Source of the DNA: Candidatus Baltobacteraceae bacterium
GTDB taxonomy: Bacteria > Vulcanimicrobiota > Vulcanimicrobiia > Vulcanimicrobiales > Vulcanimicrobiaceae
NCBI GenBank assembly: GCA_036488875.1
Contig: DASXGW010000006.1
Span: forward strand, 1 to 35,429
DNA length: 35,429 nucleotides
Direction of reading: 5' to 3'
Shown: in pieces, positions 4,541-25,639 of the stretch
Numbering within the stretch: position 1 is the stretch's first letter
How the letters are laid out: the number at the start of each line of letters is the position of its first letter
Translations under genes and position numbers: made by a program
The notes under the pieces: model-generated
The model's input: only the letters and a program-made list of their open reading frames with translations
What the model was told of the DNA's origin: nothing
Databases searched by the model: none

Positions 4541-5965
4541 CTACGGCGGCCCAGTATAGCCCGGCTTGTACGGTCCTTCGAAACCGTTGGGCATGACCGG
4601 CAACGGACGTGGCGGCCGCGTGAAGTCGAAGTCCGCGCGAAGGTCGCCTAGCTGGGGCGCGTTTTCGGGAACGGTCGGACGCGCATCGGGACGGCCGTCG
4701 GTTTTCGGATCGATCCGTTCGCCGTCGAGGAAATCGTCTTCGATGAATTTCACGTAGGCGTCGTGGCTGAGCGTTTGGTGATCGACGAAACCCTTACGCG
4801 CATAGGCACTGATGACCAATGCCGGCACGCGCAATCCATAGCCGAACGTATTGACGTCGGGCGGCACGACGTGGTCGTAGAAACCGCCCCAGTCGTCCCA
4901 GCTCAAAAAGATCGCGGTGGAATCCCAATACTTGCTGCGCGCGATGGCGTTCACGATGCCCGCGACGTAGGCTTGACCGGCGCTCAGCAATCCCGGAGGA
5001 TGTTCGCTGTAGCGATTTGACGGCGCCAGCCAAACCACCGACGGCAGATTCCCATTAGCGAGATCTCTAAAAAACAACGACGTGTCCTTGATGTTGCCGA
5101 GCTCGCCGTCTTCTTTCACGTCGACGAACGCCGGAAGCGGATTCCAAATGCTCGGCGTTCGTGCCGTTTGCGGTTTGAGCTTGCAGCTCGCCTGATCGCC
5201 GTCGCAGTCGGGCTCGAATCCGTCCATCACGTAGTACGCCCACGAAACGCGATGCGCGTGCAGCAAGTACGTGAGATCGGTCCACGGCGACGACGGGCGA
5301 CCGGGCACCCAATATCGCCGCGGCATGATGTCGTGCGGCTTTTCGTCGTTATCGGTGAACCGGCGATCGGACACGCAGCTCATTGGGTCCGTTGCGCTCT
5401 TACACTTGGCGGCCCATTCCGACACCATGTAGACGTGCAGCGGCAAACTCCACGATCGTACCGGCGCGAACATGCGATCCTGCAGCACGAAGTCGCGCGC
5501 GTAGGCCCAATACGTCGGTAACTCGGCTTCGGTATGATAGCCCATCACCGTCTCTTCGTGTCCCTTGACCGCGCACGTCGGTATGTCGGTAGGGCAGCCG
5601 CCTGGGCCCTGGAGATTTTCCATCACTTGAATGAAGCCGTCCATTTTACCGCCGTCGATGACCACGTCGGCGGCGTGCGCGCTGTGCGGACCGCCGGTAT
5701 TTTCGTCACCGGTCTCGTGATACGGACGAACGCACGGCCTCCCCGGCAGACTAGGCATGCACGCCACCGGAACGCCGCCGTTCATGGCGATGCCGTCGGC
5801 GCCCGGATACGTTCCGAAGTAACTGTCGAACGAGCGATTCTCTTGCATGATGATGACGACGTGCTGAATTTTATGAATATCGCCGGCACTCTCGCGCGGC
5901 GGTGCGGCCCCTGCGAGGAGCGGCAACGCCAACAGGGCTGCAGCTAGGCGGCTAAGCACGCGCAT
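4541..5965 (-). CDS. Secreted phosphoesterase (acid phosphatase/phospholipase C family)
   Basis: Protein of 474 residues. The ATG at 5965 is chosen because it overlaps the upstream MGMT stop by one base (TGATG) and is followed at once by a signal peptide (residues 1-21). Family marks of the phosphoesterase superfamily (PF04185 type, including AcpA acid phosphatases and bacterial phospholipase C) are ENRSFD at 42-47, the GTYPGADG segment, and [13 protein letters not shown] near 356-369, whose acidic residues and histidine are expected metal ligands. The reaction should be phosphomonoester or phospholipid hydrolysis outside the cytoplasm; the substrate cannot be told. A second, diverged member lies at 24284-25639. 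Co-directional with MGMT upstream and the diguanylate cyclase downstream. Confidence 0.9.
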
Positions 5966-6468
5966 CAAAAGAGCCGCGGCTGCACGACGATGGCTTCTTC
6001 GAGCTCGAGCAGCGCGCGCTTGAGCGGCAAACCGCCGCCGAAGCCTACCAACTCGCCGTTGCTGCCGATGACGCGATGGCATGGAATCACGATCGGTATG
6101 GGATTCGCGCCGTTGGCTCGTCCTACTGCCCGTGCGCCGTTAACGAGGCCGAGTTCGTCGGCGATGGCGCCGTACGATAGGGTCCGTCCGTACGGAATAT
6201 CGCACAGCCGTTTCCAGATCTGCAGCTCGAACGGCGTTCCGTGCGGCTCGAAGCGGAGATCGAACGTCCGGCGCTTGCGCGAAAAATACTCGTCGAGTTG
6301 TTTTCGCGCACGGTCGAGACCGGTTGCGGCCGCTCGCGTGGGGTTCGGGGTCGACTCTTTGCGCCTTGCACGGCCCGGCAGCCACGTTTCGACGAGAATG
6401 CCGTCGGCGTCGACCGTTACGTGCATCGGCCCAAACGCGGTTTCCAGCTCGCCCCGGTACAGTTCCAC
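5965..6468 (-). CDS. ogt: Methylated-DNA--[protein]-cysteine S-methyltransferase
   Basis: Protein of 167 residues, the usual length for Ogt/MGMT. The suicide acceptor motif IPCHRVIG is present with the cysteine at 130. The helix-turn-helix minor-groove region ([28 protein letters not shown] split over about 93-120) carries the arginine expected to flip the damaged base. It moves the alkyl group from O6-alkylguanine, or O4-alkylthymine, to its own cysteine in a single irreversible turnover. The GTG start at 6468 gives the typical short N-terminal domain ([14 protein letters not shown]). It is first in the minus-strand operon and divergent from the SGNH gene, with under 80 bases between the two starts. 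The symbol ogt is by family; ada-type regulators are excluded because there is no AraC domain. Confidence 0.93.
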
Positions 6469-17226: not shown

Positions 17227-17820
17227 GTGATCCCAGCCTCCGCTCACCCCCGGACGATCGCAGTCGACCTCGACGACACGCTTAACAATTTCTACGAAAC
17301 GTTGCAGAACGGTGAGTTCCCGCACGACCCAGCCGGTTCGCTGTCAGAAGAAACGTTCGAGCGTTACCTCCGGCTCATCCGTAACGGGGAACTGGAACCA
17401 GGCAACCTCATGAGCACCGCCTTCAACTATTGCCGCACCAAGATTCACCTGCGGTGTTGGCAAGAGGCCCGCGCGCGCCCCGATGGCGTTGAATTCATGC
17501 AATGGCTCAGACGCAATGGATGGCGTATTGTCATCTGTACGCGTCGTGACGTTCGGCTAGCGCTCGATTGCACGAAGGCCTGGCTACGAGAGAACGGGAT
17601 TCCCTTCGACTATCTTTTTATGACGCGAAGCAAAGTGGCGTTTTGCTGGGCATGGGGGATTCGGCACTTGGTCGATGACTCGGAGTTCAATATCGTTTAT
17701 GGAAGCAAGTATAACGTTAACGTCTACTACCCCATCTTGCCGCATCAGCAATCGTTACCGCCGAACAACGCGCGCGGTTTCCAGTCCTTCGACGAAGTGC
17801 GGCGATGGATCCAAGAGTAA
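17227..17820 (+). CDS. HAD-superfamily phosphatase, 5'-nucleotidase-like
   Basis: Protein of 197 residues from a GTG at 17227. HAD motifs are complete: motif I DLDDTLNN (nucleophile Asp14, acid/base Asp16), motif II VICTRRD (Thr105), Lys136 in the TRSKV loop and motif IV Asp150-Asp151 in HLVDDSEFN. The DLDDTL form and the small helical cap insert (about 20-95) suggest the deoxyribonucleotidase/NagD-like small phosphatases; the substrate is inferred only. Sampled 60-base lines are about 50-53% GC, against 67-68% in the LytR and pqqE lines counted. It overlaps the next gene by 16 bases, so the two act together in all likelihood. Confidence 0.85.
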   Translation: MIPASAHPRTIAVDLDDTLNNFYETLQNGEFPHDPAGSLSEETFERYLRLIRNGELEPGNLMSTAFNYCRTKIHLRCWQEARARPDGVEFMQWLRRNGWRIVICTRRDVRLALDCTKAWLRENGIPFDYLFMTRSKVAFCWAWGIRHLVDDSEFNIVYGSKYNVNVYYPILPHQQSLPPNNARGFQSFDEVRRWIQE

Positions 17821-18560
17821 GGCTGCTCGAGGACTTTTCCAAAGGCTTCGTCAGAGATAAAGCCAAGATCGAGGCCGAGCTATTCGGTTTCGAGTTCTTG
17901 GAGTCGTTGCTATCGGGCGGCGCGGCACTGGAATACGGAGCGCTGACCGACATACGGATGCTCCATCGATACAAGTTAGTCGACATCTCCGAACACAAAA
18001 TGAACCAGTTGATTCAGCTGCACGTTATGAAGCAACTCAACGTGTGCAGGTATTTCGGCGCGGAGAAGAACGACGTCTTCTGCTTCAACCTGGACAACAA
18101 CCACAAAACCGACAACACCGTAATTATCCCGGAACTGAGCACGGCCTTGGACACGCTGAGAACGTGCCTCCTCGGCTTAGGGTGCGAACCTCTAGTCGTT
18201 GCAAGCGGGCGCGGGTATCACGTGTCCTTGCGGCTCGACGTACCTATGGAGAACGCGCTGCTCTACCGCTTCATGGTCGCAATTGCGGCCCGTGCTCTCC
18301 TTCCGCTTTTGACCCGTGGCGACGATCACCGTACCGTCAAGATCAACTTTTATCCCGACATTAATATCGTCGACGTGGTTTCGCTGCGGCTATTTGGCAC
18401 CGTGCACGCAAAGAATAAGACCTTCAGTCACGTACTTACGCCAAACGGTCTTCTAAACGAAGACGATTCATGGAAATATTTCGAGCATTTCGTACGAAAC
18501 GGAACCACTAGTGCGGCAACGATCGTATCGGCGCTCGACGAGCTGCAGACGGCTACGTAA
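17805..18560 (+). CDS. Archaeo-eukaryotic primase (AEP)-like protein
   Basis: Protein of 251 residues, no close relative recalled. Three blocks match AEP primase/polymerase motifs in order and spacing: motif I VFCFNLDNN (Asp97, with Asn95 where many AEPs have the first Asp), motif II SGRGYHVSLRL at 134-144 (the SxH-type nucleotide-binding signature), and motif III VDVVSLRLFGTVHAKN at 189-204, like the D...RLPGSLHGKT run of PriS and LigD-Pol. No zinc finger or helicase domain is present. If active it would make primers or fill DNA; the Asn in motif I makes activity uncertain. Sampled lines give 42-52% GC, the lowest counted in the window, hinting at transfer. Its partner is the HAD phosphatase that overlaps its start. 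Confidence 0.65.
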   Translation: MDPRVRLLEDFSKGFVRDKAKIEAELFGFEFLESLLSGGAALEYGALTDIRMLHRYKLVDISEHKMNQLIQLHVMKQLNVCRYFGAEKNDVFCFNLDNNHKTDNTVIIPELSTALDTLRTCLLGLGCEPLVVASGRGYHVSLRLDVPMENALLYRFMVAIAARALLPLLTRGDDHRTVKINFYPDINIVDVVSLRLFGTVHAKNKTFSHVLTPNGLLNEDDSWKYFEHFVRNGTTSAATIVSALDELQTAT

Positions 18561-21295: not shown

Positions 21296-21391
21296 ATGAA
21301 ACAACGTTGGGAACGTCCGAATTTCGAAGAGCATCCGCTCGGAGCCGAAGTCACGGCCTACTTGACGGCGCCGCGCACGCCCAAAGACTAG
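21296..21391 (+). CDS. pqqA: PQQ precursor peptide PqqA
   Basis: Tiny gene of 31 residues, easily missed because of its size. The conserved precursor motif Glu-x3-Tyr is present as EVTAY (Glu18, Tyr22), the two residues that PqqE joins and that become the PQQ skeleton. It sits directly before pqqC, as expected for a PQQ operon. The N-terminal MKQRWERPNF with an early Trp is typical of PqqA (other species have MWTKP). The gene starts ten bases after the desaturase stop. Its stop codon TAG forms part of AGGAA, the likely ribosome binding site of pqqC. Confidence 0.88.
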   Translation: MKQRWERPNFEEHPLGAEVTAYLTAPRTPKD

Positions 21392-21402
21392 GAACCCGCC
21401 CG

Positions 21403-22086
21403 CTGAGGGCCAACGGCGACGACCGTTTCGTCGCGCGGCTTGAGGCCGTCGGCGCGCAACGGTACCACGACAAGCATCCCTTTCACGAGCGCCTCGTTGC
21501 CGGGGCGCTTTCGCGCGAACAGGTGCAGGCTTGGGTCGCCAACCGGTATTACTATCAAAAGCAAATCCCCGTAAAAGACGCCGCAATCTTGGCGAACTTG
21601 CCGTCGGCGGAGTATCGTCGCGTCTGGATCTCGCGCATTTACGATCACGACGGAACGCACGACGGCGAAGGCGGAACGATTTCCTGGCTCGCGCTCGCCC
21701 GGGCCGTCGGATTGGACGAAGATCGCGTGCGATCGGAATCCGACGTTGCGCCCGGTACACGCTTTGCCGTCGATGCGTACGTCAACTTCGCGCGGACGCG
21801 CCCGTGGCTCGAGGCGGTCGCATCATCGCTCACCGAGCTCTTCGGACCGCCGGTGATGCAGCGCCGCGTCGCCGCCATCGTCGAGCGCTATCCGTGGATC
21901 GATCGGTCCGGTTTGACGTACTTCGAGAACCGCATTCCGCTGGCGCAACGCGACGCGCAGTCGGCGCTGGAATGGGTGCTGCGGCACGCGACGACGCAAG
22001 AGCTGCAAGACCGCTGCGTCGACGCGCTGCGCTTTAAATGTGACGTCTTGTGGTGTATCCTCGATGCCACTGAACGCAGCGGATAA
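21403..22086 (+). CDS. pqqC: Pyrroloquinoline-quinone synthase PqqC
   Basis: Protein of about 227 residues. It catalyses the last step, ring closure and eight-electron oxidation with O2. Family marks: YHDKHPFHERLVAG, QAWVANRYYYQKQIPVKDAA, RIYDHDGTHDGEGG, RFAVDAYVNFAR and SSLTELF. There is no ATG or GTG in frame at the N-terminus. The CTG at 21403 has AGGAA (21390-21394) eight bases upstream and gives an N-terminus that aligns with known PqqC (RANGDDRFVARLEAVGAQ). The other option, a TTG at 21307, would read through most of pqqA in another frame. CTG starts are rare, so an upstream sequence error cannot be excluded. It overlaps pqqD by 23 bases. Confidence 0.93.
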   Translation: MRANGDDRFVARLEAVGAQRYHDKHPFHERLVAGALSREQVQAWVANRYYYQKQIPVKDAAILANLPSAEYRRVWISRIYDHDGTHDGEGGTISWLALARAVGLDEDRVRSESDVAPGTRFAVDAYVNFARTRPWLEAVASSLTELFGPPVMQRRVAAIVERYPWIDRSGLTYFENRIPLAQRDAQSALEWVLRHATTQELQDRCVDALRFKCDVLWCILDATERSG

Positions 22087-22339
22087 GCCGCGGCTCGGCA
22101 AGGGCGTGCGCGTGCGCCGCGAGACCGACGGTAGTTCGATGCTGCTCGTCCCCGAAGGCGCGCTCGCGCTCAACGCGACGGCGGCCGCGACGCTCGAGCT
22201 GGTCGACGGGACTCGCAGCGTCGCCGAGATCGCAGCGCAACTCGTCGAACGTTTTGACGTCGACGAACACCAAGCGAGCGAGGACGTCTCCCGGCTCTTG
22301 GAGCGTCTAGCCGAGCGGCGGTTCGTCGAAACGTCGTGA
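22064..22339 (+). CDS. pqqD: PQQ biosynthesis chaperone PqqD
   Basis: Protein of 91 residues, the normal PqqD size. PqqD is the RiPP recognition element that binds the PqqA leader and presents it to PqqE. Recognisable are PRLGKGVRVRRETDGSSMLLVPEGALALN, split over the first third, and the helical part VDGTRSVAEIAAQLVERFDV, like other PqqD proteins. The ATG at 22064 is preferred to the GTG at 22040, which lies deeper within pqqC. The stop overlaps the pqqE start by four bases (GTGA), consistent with equal production of the PqqD-PqqE complex. Confidence 0.93.
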   Translation: MPLNAADKPRLGKGVRVRRETDGSSMLLVPEGALALNATAAATLELVDGTRSVAEIAAQLVERFDVDEHQASEDVSRLLERLAERRFVETS

Positions 22340-23403
22340 ACGCACCGCGCCCGCTCTCGCTCCTGTGTGAGTTGACGTATCGCTGCAACCTGCAGTGTCC
22401 GTACTGTTACAATCCGCTCGATCTCCGTCGTTACGACGATGAGCTGACCGCGTCGCAATGGGAGCGCGTGCTCGCCGAGGCGGCGGCGATGGGCGTCGTG
22501 CAAGCGCATTTCTCCGGCGGCGAGCCGACCCTGTACCGGGGCTTAGAGCGCCTGGTGGCGGCCGCGCACGATGCGGGATTGTACGGCAACCTCATCACGC
22601 AAGGCACGTTTCTCGACGATGCGCTCCTCGACCGGCTGCTCGCAGCAGGCCTCGATCACGTGCAGATCAGCGTTCAAGCCGACGAGGCCGTACTCGCCGA
22701 CGAGATTGCCGGCGCGCACGTCCACGAGAAAAAACTCGACGCGCTCGCGCGCGTCGCTAAACGCGACGTCGCGCTCACGCTCAACTGCGTGCTGCACCGG
22801 CGCAACCACGACGCGATCGAAGCGATCGTCGCGCTCGCCGAGCGTTTTGGCGTCAGCCGTCTGGAGCTGGCGAACGTACAGTTCTATGGGTGGGCCTATC
22901 GCAATCGCGCCGCGCTGATGCCCACGCGCGAACAAGTGCGTCGCGGCGAAGCGGTCGTCGATGCCGCACGCGAGCGGCTGCGCGGCGTCATGGACATCGT
23001 CTACGTACTGCCCGACTATTTTGGCGATTTTCCCAAACCGTGCATGAACGGGTGGGGCAGCACCTTTCTGACCGTTGCCCCGAATGGTGACGTGCTGCCA
23101 TGTCCCGCCGCATCGGCCATCGACGGCATGACGTTCGAAAACGTGCGCGCGCGTTCGCTGGCCGAGATCTGGAACTCGTCCGAAGCGTTCGCGCGCTTTC
23201 GCGGCACCGATTGGATGCCGGAGCCTTGCCACTCGTGCGAGCGGCGGGAAACCGATTGGGGCGGCTGCCGCTGCCAAGCGTTTCTGCTTGCCGGCGACGC
23301 CGGGGCTACCGACCCGGCCTGCTCGCTCAGCCCGCATCACGACGTCGTCGTGCGCCTGCGCGACGGTGACGACGAAGCCGCCGCCGTTGCGCGTCTCCGG
23401 TGA
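22336..23403 (+). CDS. pqqE: PqqA peptide cyclase PqqE (radical SAM)
   Basis: Protein of 355 residues. Radical SAM cluster motif CX3CX2C is CNLQCPYC (Cys17, Cys21, Cys24). FSGGEPTLYRGLE follows, the SAM-binding GGE segment. The C-terminal SPASM part has GDVLPCPAAS, then CHSCERRETDWGGCRCQAFLL, enough cysteines for two auxiliary iron-sulphur clusters. PqqE forms the carbon-carbon bond between the Glu and Tyr of PqqA while PqqD holds the peptide. GTG start, four-base overlap with pqqD and four-base overlap with pqqB (GGTGA), so the run is translationally linked. Confidence 0.95.
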   Translation: MNAPRPLSLLCELTYRCNLQCPYCYNPLDLRRYDDELTASQWERVLAEAAAMGVVQAHFSGGEPTLYRGLERLVAAAHDAGLYGNLITQGTFLDDALLDRLLAAGLDHVQISVQADEAVLADEIAGAHVHEKKLDALARVAKRDVALTLNCVLHRRNHDAIEAIVALAERFGVSRLELANVQFYGWAYRNRAALMPTREQVRRGEAVVDAARERLRGVMDIVYVLPDYFGDFPKPCMNGWGSTFLTVAPNGDVLPCPAASAIDGMTFENVRARSLAEIWNSSEAFARFRGTDWMPEPCHSCERRETDWGGCRCQAFLLAGDAGATDPACSLSPHHDVVVRLRDGDDEAAAVARLR

Positions 23404-24275
23404 TTTTTCGTATTCTCGGATCCGCCGCCGGCGGCGGCGTTCCGCAATGGAATTGTGCCTGCGCGAACTGCATCGCCGCGCGTAGCGGCGTCGCGCCCCG
23501 GCGCACGCAGTCCGGTGCGGCGGTCAGCGCCGATGGCGATCGGTGGCTCCTCCTCAACTGTTCGCCGGACATAGCAGCGCAGATCGAAACGTTCGCGCCG
23601 CTGCAGCCGCGCTCGCTGCGCGATACGCCGATCGACGGTATCGCACTCACCGATGCAAACGTGGACCATTTGGGGGGCTTGGCGGCGCTGCGTCAATCGG
23701 GCAAGCATCGATTCGCGATCTGCTCGAGCCCGGTCGTTCGCGATATCGCCGTCGCCCAGACGGCATTTGCGCCGTTCGAGCGCGAGCCGCATCGCTGGGA
23801 CGCGCTGGCGGATGGGGAGTGGGGCGAGCGTTTTGGGTTACGTCTGCGCGGTTTTTCCGTACCGGGAACAACACCTGGATACGCCGGCAGGCGCGAAGAT
23901 CCAGGCGCGGTGTTCGCCTATGAAATCGGCGCCCCAGGGAACGGTGCGCCGATCCTTTTCGCACCCGTGTTTAGCGCAATTGATGGCCCTCTCTTCGAAG
24001 CGATCTCACGCGCAACGGTGGCGATTCTCGACGGAAGCTTCTTCAGTCATGACGAGCTCCTTGCCGGCGGGTTCATGGAGAAAACGGCGCGCCAGCTCGG
24101 CCATTCACCCGTCGGCGGGTCCGGCGGAACGCTCGACCGGCTGCGGGGCGTGCGAACGCGCATCGTTTTCACGCACGTCAACAACTCCAACCCGATGCTC
24201 GACCCGAGCTCCGCAGCCGCTGTCGACGTACGCCGCGCCGGCGCCGAGATCGCGTACGACGGGATGACGTTCTAG
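23400..24275 (+). CDS. pqqB: PQQ biosynthesis protein PqqB
   Basis: Protein of 291 residues, GTG start overlapping the pqqE stop. It has the metallo-beta-lactamase fold with PqqB marks: LGSAAGGGVPQWNC, the zinc-binding CACANC (Cys19, Cys21, Cys24), the DANVDHLGGL metal site at about 85-94, and LDGSFFSHDEL. PqqB is a non-haem iron hydroxylase acting on the cross-linked Glu-Tyr intermediate. It is the last gene of the run, so the order is A-C-D-E-B, whereas the classical Klebsiella order is A-B-C-D-E-F. No pqqF or other M16 protease is present in the window. Only eight bases separate its stop from the convergent phosphoesterase gene. Confidence 0.94.
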   Translation: MIFRILGSAAGGGVPQWNCACANCIAARSGVAPRRTQSGAAVSADGDRWLLLNCSPDIAAQIETFAPLQPRSLRDTPIDGIALTDANVDHLGGLAALRQSGKHRFAICSSPVVRDIAVAQTAFAPFEREPHRWDALADGEWGERFGLRLRGFSVPGTTPGYAGRREDPGAVFAYEIGAPGNGAPILFAPVFSAIDGPLFEAISRATVAILDGSFFSHDELLAGGFMEKTARQLGHSPVGGSGGTLDRLRGVRTRIVFTHVNNSNPMLDPSSAAAVDVRRAGAEIAYDGMTF

Positions 24276-24283
24276 CGTCTCTT

Positions 24284-25639
24284 TTAGTAGTCGTCGTCCG
24301 GCGGAACGTCCTCGCGTGCGGGGTCGGTAAAGAACGCCGCGCGTCTGAACGTCGGTATCGGTTGGAACGGCTGGAACGATTGCGAGAAATCGAAGCAATC
24401 GCGCAAGTCGTCGGCGCGCTCGTCGGTCGTGTGCAGCGACGGCAGGTCGAACGCTTCTTCGGTAAACTTCAGGATGCTGCCGAACTCGTGCTGCATGTGC
24501 GAGACGTAATGCGGCTTCGCCCACGGTGAAATGACGATCATCGGAACGCGCGGCCCGAGCCCCATGCGATCGAGCCGCGGCGGGACCACGTGATCGTACC
24601 AGCCGCCCCAGTCGTCCCAAGTAACGATAATCGCGGTCGAACTCCAAAACGGGCCGCGTCCGAGCGCGTTGACGACCGATGCGACCCACTCGGGACCGAA
24701 GGCGCCTTTCACGCCGACGTCTTTCTTGGTGGTGCGATTGGGAAACGGATGGTCGGAGTTTTGCATCGTGGGGACGACCCACGTGATCGACGGAATGTCG
24801 CCGATGACGGCGTCGTTAATCACGCGCGTCTCGGGCGAAACGACGTTTTGCCAACGCGGCGAAAACCGAATGTGCTTGATCGCGTCGAACGCCGACCAAA
24901 TATTTCCGAGCTGGTTGAGACCCGGCGCGTAGTACCGCCAGGGTACGCCGTTGGCCATGGCGACGTCGGCGAGCGTTTCGAAATCGAGGCACGGATAAAT
25001 GCCCGGCTCGACTTCGTTACCGTCGACGCCAATGAGCGAAACGCGCGCGTCGGGCGGTGAGTCGCAACCCCACGCGAACCGCGTCGTGCCGAGCTGATTC
25101 GGATTGCTCGCGATGTACCCAGCCTGGCCCGCGATCAGATACAGATGTGCCGGAAAGCTCGGCCCGGTGTTCGATTGAAACATCCGGTCGGCGAAGGTAT
25201 AACGCTTGGCCATGATCCAATACGGCTCGACCTCACGTTCGGGCACGTAGGCGTACGCAAACTCGTCGGGCTGCTTCGGCGTCGTCATCGCTTCGGCAAA
25301 ACCGTCCATGCGGCCGTTGTCGTACTCGGTCATCCACGCGCGGTGCTGATGGTCGACGTCTGCGGGATAGCCCAGGTCGACCGGCTCCAAGTTGACCGGC
25401 CCGATTCGCCGCTCGCCGATGCGCACCGTGTCGGCGCCCGGAAAGCCGTTAAAGAGGTTGTCGACGCTGCGGTTTTCCTGGACGACGATGACGACGTGCT
25501 TGATGTGCGACCGAAGCGCCGCGAGGTACGCGGCATCGACCGCCTGCCTGGCGCTCTGGGGGGTCTGAGCGAGCGCTGGGACGCCCGGCATTATGCAAGC
25601 AAGCGCTAGTGCTGACGCTAAAAAGCGTCTCGTCCTCAT
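24284..25639 (-). CDS. Secreted phosphoesterase, second copy
   Basis: Protein of 451 residues with a signal peptide (1-25, ending ALAQT). Same superfamily as the gene at 4541-5965: [18 protein letters not shown] (ENRSVD at 55-60) and [17 protein letters not shown] starting at about 340 keep the metal and active-site residues. TMQNSDHPF and VVISPWAK-like [13 protein letters not shown] are also typical of the AcpA/phospholipase C group. The phosphate ester it cuts is unknown. Differences in length and in the middle region show that it is an old paralogue, not a recent copy. It is divergent from the PQQ-type propeller gene with just 34 bases between the two ATG codons, so their promoters must overlap or lie in coding DNA. 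Confidence 0.92.

Follow-up and report, generated by a model that had tools for sequence, protein, structure and literature searches.

What could a protein of the primase fold be doing in partnership with a phosphatase? The question arises from a stretch of 35,429 nucleotides of a Candidatus Baltobacteraceae genome (GCA_036488875.1, contig DASXGW010000006.1), hereafter the window, in which a HAD-superfamily phosphatase gene runs into a gene for a 251-residue AEP-like protein. The initial annotation of this DNA described two genes sharing 16 bases, and the open reading frames agree (Table 1). The GTG start of the HAD gene is supported because the copy in a related genome, G101, begins alike (MIPASAHPRT in the window, MPANAHPRT in G101). 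A patch of lower GC had also been reported, and it is real: the pair has a GC content of 54.4%, compared with a mean of 61.9% (sd 2.2%) over all 1,334-base segments, and the minimum of the whole window at that segment length (53.9%) falls at the HAD–AEP pair. By gene, GC is 55.7% for the HAD, 53.0% for the AEP-like gene, 62.8% for the LytTR gene and 66.2% for pqqE, the last two values lying slightly below the line counts given in the annotation. GC3 is 0.69 in both genes of the pair and 0.69–0.80 elsewhere in the window; as the drop is smaller at third codon positions, part of it reflects amino-acid composition.

Table 1. Positions in the window of the overlapping genes and of their motifs, with conservation across the loci compared.
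Feature	Position	Strand	Details
HAD-superfamily phosphatase	17227..17820	+	ORF, GTG start, 197 aa
HAD motif I, DLDDTLNNF (D14 nucleophile, D16)	17266..17292	+	intact in 20/22 loci
HAD motif II, Thr105	17539..17541	+	invariant, 22/22
HAD motif III, Lys136	17632..17634	+	20/22
HAD motif IV, Asp150-Asp151	17674..17679	+	intact in 20/22
Stop/start overlap of the HAD and AEP-like genes, 16 bases	17805..17820	+	ATGGATCCAAGAGTAA
AEP-fold protein, putative degenerate primase (pseudo-primase)	17805..18560	+	ORF, ATG start, 251 aa
AEP motif I, VFCFNLDNN	18075..18101	+	Asn95 replaces first Asp, 23/23; Asp97 kept, 23/23
AEP motif II, SGRGYH (His139)	18204..18221	+	S134, G135, G137 and H139 invariant, 23/23
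AEP motif III strand, RTVKINFYP	18330..18356	+	position 181 (Asn181 in the window) is N, S or T, 23/23
AEP motif IV, RLFGTVHAK	18387..18413	+	Arg195 and His201, six residues apart, invariant, 23/23

As a single-sequence query, the AEP-like protein had no match in 59 relatives, phages, plasmids or viral contigs, and the built-in patterns of the search tool returned none from 85,000 species genomes; on that outcome alone it would have passed for an orphan. Among 149 genomes of the window's phylum there was one strong homologue, that of G101, whose AEP-like protein is 65% identical and is preceded directly, with the same overlap, by a HAD that is 72% identical to that of the window. From the window and G101 sequences we made by hand a DNA pattern that set motif II at a fixed distance from the motif III/IV region. 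Against genome contigs it gave 18 matches, of which 13 were true homologues and 5 arose by chance. The homologues lie in the G101 contig, three Sporomusa strains, two Desulfosporosinus MAGs, Lucifera butyrica, two Bacillota MAGs, three Opitutia/Opitutaceae MAGs and one unclassified bacterium. Profile searches added G178, G200 and G658, with two copies each, as well as G651, G684 and G687, bringing the total to 23 loci with the window included. A further candidate, L004, was rejected as a family member and is a LigD Pol domain. All loci were found with the AEP-like protein alone as query, the HAD playing no part.

The 23 loci span Eremiobacterota, Opitutia, Sporomusa and its relatives, Desulfosporosinus and other bacterial groups, and the distribution is patchy. 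With weak LigD-like matches left out, family members occur in 2 of the 149 genomes from the window's phylum, in 10 of 300 Negativicutes (the class to which Sporomusa belongs), in 4 of 83 genomes from the Desulfosporosinus class and in 1 of 384 sampled from the class that includes one Opitutia member; a 17-member profile run against the 149 genomes found nothing in the family beyond the window and G101. Copies are mostly single and chromosomal, and they recur in Sporomusa-like lineages. At the sensitivity used, no AEP homologue was found in 72,556 plasmids, 50,697 phages or 2.9 million viral contigs, for the last of which several forms of the query and a single DNA pattern were used, and a scan of viral contigs with the HAD alignment likewise gave no homologue. 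The HAD had one remote match, at 25% identity and E = 1e-4, in an uncultured phage of 484 kb.

Whether such pairs occur together in other genomes had been proposed as a test of the annotation, and the outcome was uniform: the HAD gene lies immediately upstream of the AEP-like gene in 23 of 23 loci. In one of these (L011) the HAD is broken by a run of Ns, leaving 22 complete loci, and in every complete locus the two frames overlap, the shared stretch measuring exactly 16 bases at 17 loci and 13–46 bases at the others. Within the 300 Negativicutes genomes, the AEP profile matches 10 genomes (12 loci), and the reverse search with a HAD profile returns the same 10 genomes and 12 loci together with one fragment of 57 codons that lies at the edge of a G173 contig. 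Pairwise identities of the HADs track those of the AEP-like proteins (r = 0.957 over 231 pairs, which are not independent of one another), the main groups of the HAD tree agree with those of the AEP tree, and dN/dS values of 0.07–0.24 place both genes under purifying selection. The HAD and AEP-like genes form one two-protein module, and we infer that their translation is coupled.

The assignment of the 251-residue protein to the AEP fold is established by structural modeling. With 13 relatives in the alignment, AlphaFold2 predicted the structure at a pLDDT of 91.3 and a pTM of 0.89, compared with a pLDDT of 41 from the single sequence. The best Foldseek match to this model was the CRISPR-associated Prim-Pol (CAPP) structure 7nqe (E = 2.7e-9, TM 0.65/0.74), followed by Prim-PolC, LigD Pol and human PrimPol, and every PDB match at E ≤ 0.001 was an AEP. 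The annotation had named a structural match to the AEP fold as its other test, and the model supplies one. The nearest sequence families are Pfam AEP-TOTE, matched by 11 of the 13 relatives (best 6e-6), and LigD_Prim-Pol.

AEPs are defined by the motifs hhhDhD/E (motif I), sxH (motif II) and hD/E (motif III), in which the acids of motifs I and III are essential metal ligands and motif II binds the nucleotide; the NTP site is completed by an Arg or Lys of motif IV and the residue six positions on (PMC5862659). In human PriS, H166, K318 and H324 are the proposed NTP-binding residues (PMC5862659). Motifs II and IV of our family conform to this description, motif II reading SG(R/H)G(Y/F)H across the family and R195/H201 having the spacing of K318/H324 in human PriS and R231/N237 in PolpTN2 (PMC5862659), whereas motifs I and III depart from it. 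The altered motif I and the motif II reported in the annotation were both recovered, with Asn at position 95 (CFNLDNN) and His at 139 in all 23 proteins. Its motif III was not. Asp190, the residue that resembles this motif, was rejected after alignment, where relatives carry D, N, K, H, Q or R. Aligned by hhalign to the TOTE AEP encoded at locus L051 (probability 90%), CFNLDNN falls on CFDVD and KINFYPD on HVEIRPE, which places the motif-III acid position at Asn181, where the TOTE AEP has Glu. A second TOTE AEP (L053) would allow motif III to lie one residue off; under either placement, residues 177–184 of this strand hold no conserved acid in the 23 loci.

Across the whole AEP-like protein, E23 and D97 are the only invariant acids in the 23 loci. 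The AEP-like protein is therefore likely, judging from its sequence, to be a nucleotide-binding fold that does not polymerise. Asn is able to coordinate metals, and a rearranged metal site may exist that uses E23. Near the N-terminus, K21 is invariant together with E23 in 23 of 23 proteins.

The partner had been annotated as a HAD phosphatase with a full set of motifs, and the window protein indeed has D14-x-D16, T105, K136 and D150-D151. Sporomusa-type loci read DIDNV in motif I with both aspartates kept, and the two exceptions at this motif, with E or F at position 14, are both in G200. The window HAD matches the PHROG family phrog_415, labelled polynucleotide kinase (E = 2.7e-12), as do all 14 of the 14 HAD members (best 6.9e-16); two other phage HAD families, one labelled phosphoheptose isomerase and one unnamed, match 12–14 members. 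Weak Pfam matches of the window HAD to Hydrolase and NT5C stay below cut-off (13.6 bits against 24.8 for NT5C, PF06941), and no curated HAD family fits above its cut-off.

Both HADs of G200 lack the nucleophile and the motif III and IV residues, and one of them (L072, 7945–10245, minus strand) is the C-terminal portion of a methyltransferase protein 767 aa long. Both nevertheless still overlap an AEP-like gene that encodes Asn95 and the NTP pocket. Retention of the overlap by these degenerate HADs suggests that physical contact of HAD and AEP-like protein is important even where phosphatase chemistry is gone, and the two nucleophile-less copies indicate that phosphatase activity would not be needed everywhere.

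The reading we tentatively favor, at somewhat less than even confidence, is that a nucleotide-recognising pseudo-primase guides or gates the HAD phosphatase within a complex. The AEP-like protein, its nucleotide pocket kept and two of its three metal-binding carboxylates lost, would bind without polymerising. Associated with the HAD, it would take up a free NTP or dNTP or a nucleotide-like signal, and this binding would gate or direct the HAD, which may remove phosphate from a nucleotide or a related small phosphate ester. We chose this reading because it draws on every conserved feature, namely a pocket left intact while the metal acids are gone, a complete phosphatase site, the gene overlap and the strict co-occurrence; our confidence goes no higher because we infer both the substrate and the interaction. 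Against it, the resemblance of the HAD to NT5C is weak, and sequence does not set the substrate of the HAD. A broader proposal, which we regard as rather doubtful, is that the pair constitutes a new regulatory or surveillance module, in which a primase-fold nucleotide sensor controls a phosphatase and the two genes have spread between phyla as a cassette. Primase folds are known as polymerases; a family that keeps its nucleotide pocket under strong selection in several phyla despite the loss of acid metal ligands, with a phosphatase always at its side, would clearly exemplify such a fold put to a use besides making nucleic acid. Being small and carried by named isolates (Lucifera butyrica and the three strains of Sporomusa), the pair lends itself to direct tests of function.

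The main rival to a gated phosphatase is healing of DNA or RNA ends, which we consider unlikely: the AEP-derived subunit would recognise a terminus or gap, and the HAD would remove a 3'-phosphate for another polymerase or ligase. The polymerase domains of LigD and Prim-PolC recognise a nucleic-acid terminus or gap, the Foldseek matches include both of them bound to gapped or broken DNA, and the top HAD family, phrog_415, carries the polynucleotide kinase name. That name, however, is an annotation and not a tested activity; the loci have no ligase, kinase, Ku or nuclease in common, and the invariant residues are those of the nucleotide pocket. Quite improbable, in our estimation, is that the AEP-like protein works as a primase, polymerase or terminal transferase through an unusual metal site made up of Asn95, Asp97 and perhaps Glu23, with nucleotides cleaned or supplied by the HAD. 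The predicted AEP fold and the invariant Asp97 and Glu23 fit such an enzyme, and the RepE/RepS family of AEPs, with Gln in motif III, likewise lacks the acid there (PMC5862659). But two of the three canonical ligand positions are non-acidic in 23 of 23 proteins, and loss of the motif-I acids abolishes activity both in PolpTN2 (double mutant DID to LIL; PMC5862659) and in CAPP (DxD to AxA; PMC8211822). At about 250 residues, the protein is also too short to hold a fused helicase or PriCT domain, and the loci have no replication gene in common. A working stand-alone primase, as in the initial annotation, is not supported, given the same non-acidic positions and the misassigned motif III; the annotation's more general description, in which a HAD phosphatase is coupled with a protein of the AEP fold, is supported, the pair being kept in every locus found. 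Its suggestion of plasmid replication is not borne out by the 72,556 plasmids searched, which held no homologue at the sensitivity used, though in one genome two copies sit in a mobile-element-like setting.

Less probable again is a role in defence or of a toxin–antitoxin kind, in which one component would alter nucleotides or nucleic acids under infection or stress and be held in check by its partner. A stand-alone, overlapping pair that is patchy across phyla and has no fixed neighbours fits such a role, and some of the AEP-like proteins weakly resemble the primase part of RT-UG10 systems. The window pair, however, has no match in PADLOC, the neighbourhoods share no defence genes, the remote HAD match is the only homologue in plasmids or phages, and the mostly single, chromosomal copies that recur within Sporomusa-like lineages speak against it. 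As for chance, namely neighbours of unrelated function brought together by accident, we give it practically no credence: it is refuted by the pairing in 23 of 23 loci from distant bacteria, the conserved overlap, the reciprocal co-occurrence and the correlated divergence.

How, then, does the pair compare with known systems? CAPP (PDB 7nqe, 7nqf, 7p9j), the best solved fold match, is an active primase-polymerase whose DxD motif consists of D177 and D179 (PMC8211822), whereas the AEP-like family has NxD and no motif-III acid. CAPP goes with CRISPR genes and our family with a HAD; in the shared-gene comparison, no cas genes were common to the 23 neighbourhoods. The closest named sequence family is AEP-TOTE (PF22548), against which members of the Sporomusa group score 19.7–21.7 bits (cut-off 27) and the window protein has no match at E ≤ 1. 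The TOTE AEPs that we compared keep their acids (FDVD, VE), and the one at L053 is followed by a helicase, whereas the AEP-like gene has none adjacent to it. LigD Pol and Prim-PolC share the predicted fold (6sa0, 2r9l), but LigD has DxD (FDLD in L004) where the family has NxD, and the family carries no ligase or phosphoesterase domain. The LigD profile PF21686 reaches E = 0.0066 at best in the family and 12.1 bits against a cut-off of 27.4 for the window protein; by eye, no partner ligase was recognised among the window's ORFs.

On the phosphatase side, NT5C and T4-Pnkp-like HADs (PF06941, phrog_415) share with our HAD the DxD/T/K/DD signature and an insert after motif I. What sets our HAD apart is that no curated family matches it above cut-off and that, in the profile-searched genomes, it appears only beside the AEP-like gene, save for the contig-edge fragment. 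Six AEP-like members match RT_UG10_large of PADLOC (best E = 2.7e-5), but the neighbours common to the AEP-like loci include no reverse transcriptase. PADLOC gave no match for the window pair and weak matches in some relatives only (HEC-01B, 0.0072; RT_UG10, 2.7e-5). Neither the HAD–AEP combination nor an NxD AEP family lacking the motif-III acid is in Pfam, NCBIfam, PHROGs or PADLOC, and a limited search of the open literature returned no published description of the pair, in line with the annotation's remark that it knew of no system of this form. Both parts belong to known superfamilies; within the reach of that search, their combination and the NxD AEP family are apparently undescribed.

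In both the HAD and the AEP tree, the window and G101 are placed among Opitutia sequences, and this placement, together with the patchiness and the low GC, points to horizontal transfer. No empty insertion site was found for the pair, the LytTR neighbour in the window having no close counterpart in a same-genus genome. Beyond the pair itself, no gene is common to all 23 neighbourhoods, and the recurring neighbours are only antisense artefacts, generic regulators, histidine kinases, chemoreceptors and transporters. G178 has two related copies of the pair (L050, 2000–8700; L051, 800–8167) beside SpoVG-like and repressor-like genes. Next to one copy is a tyrosine-recombinase-like gene, whereas the other has IS21-type genes for neighbours, along with a TOTE AEP whose acidic motifs are intact; the SpoVG-, repressor- and tyrosine-recombinase-like names were given by eye from the sequences. 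Settings of this kind suggest that the pair probably travels on mobile elements in at least some cases.

In two Sporomusa genomes (L042, 9811–11582; L047, 1740–3502), a sulfotransferase gene and an HPr-kinase-like gene lie directly upstream on the same strand, and these neighbours are absent from the loci of other lineages. The pair stands just before flgD-, flgE- and flgK-like genes in G658 (L082, 10615–18009) and G684 (L084, 4827–9827), and the pair of L045 is also near flagellin-like genes. An XPB/ResIII-type helicase gene lies directly upstream of the pair in a Bacillota MAG (L044, 9286–10947, minus strand). Elsewhere in the window, two secreted phospholipase C/acid-phosphatase-like proteins are encoded on the minus strand (4541–6082 and 24284–25639), and pqqC-, pqqE- and pqqB-like genes follow one another at 21307–24275 as a PQQ synthesis cluster.
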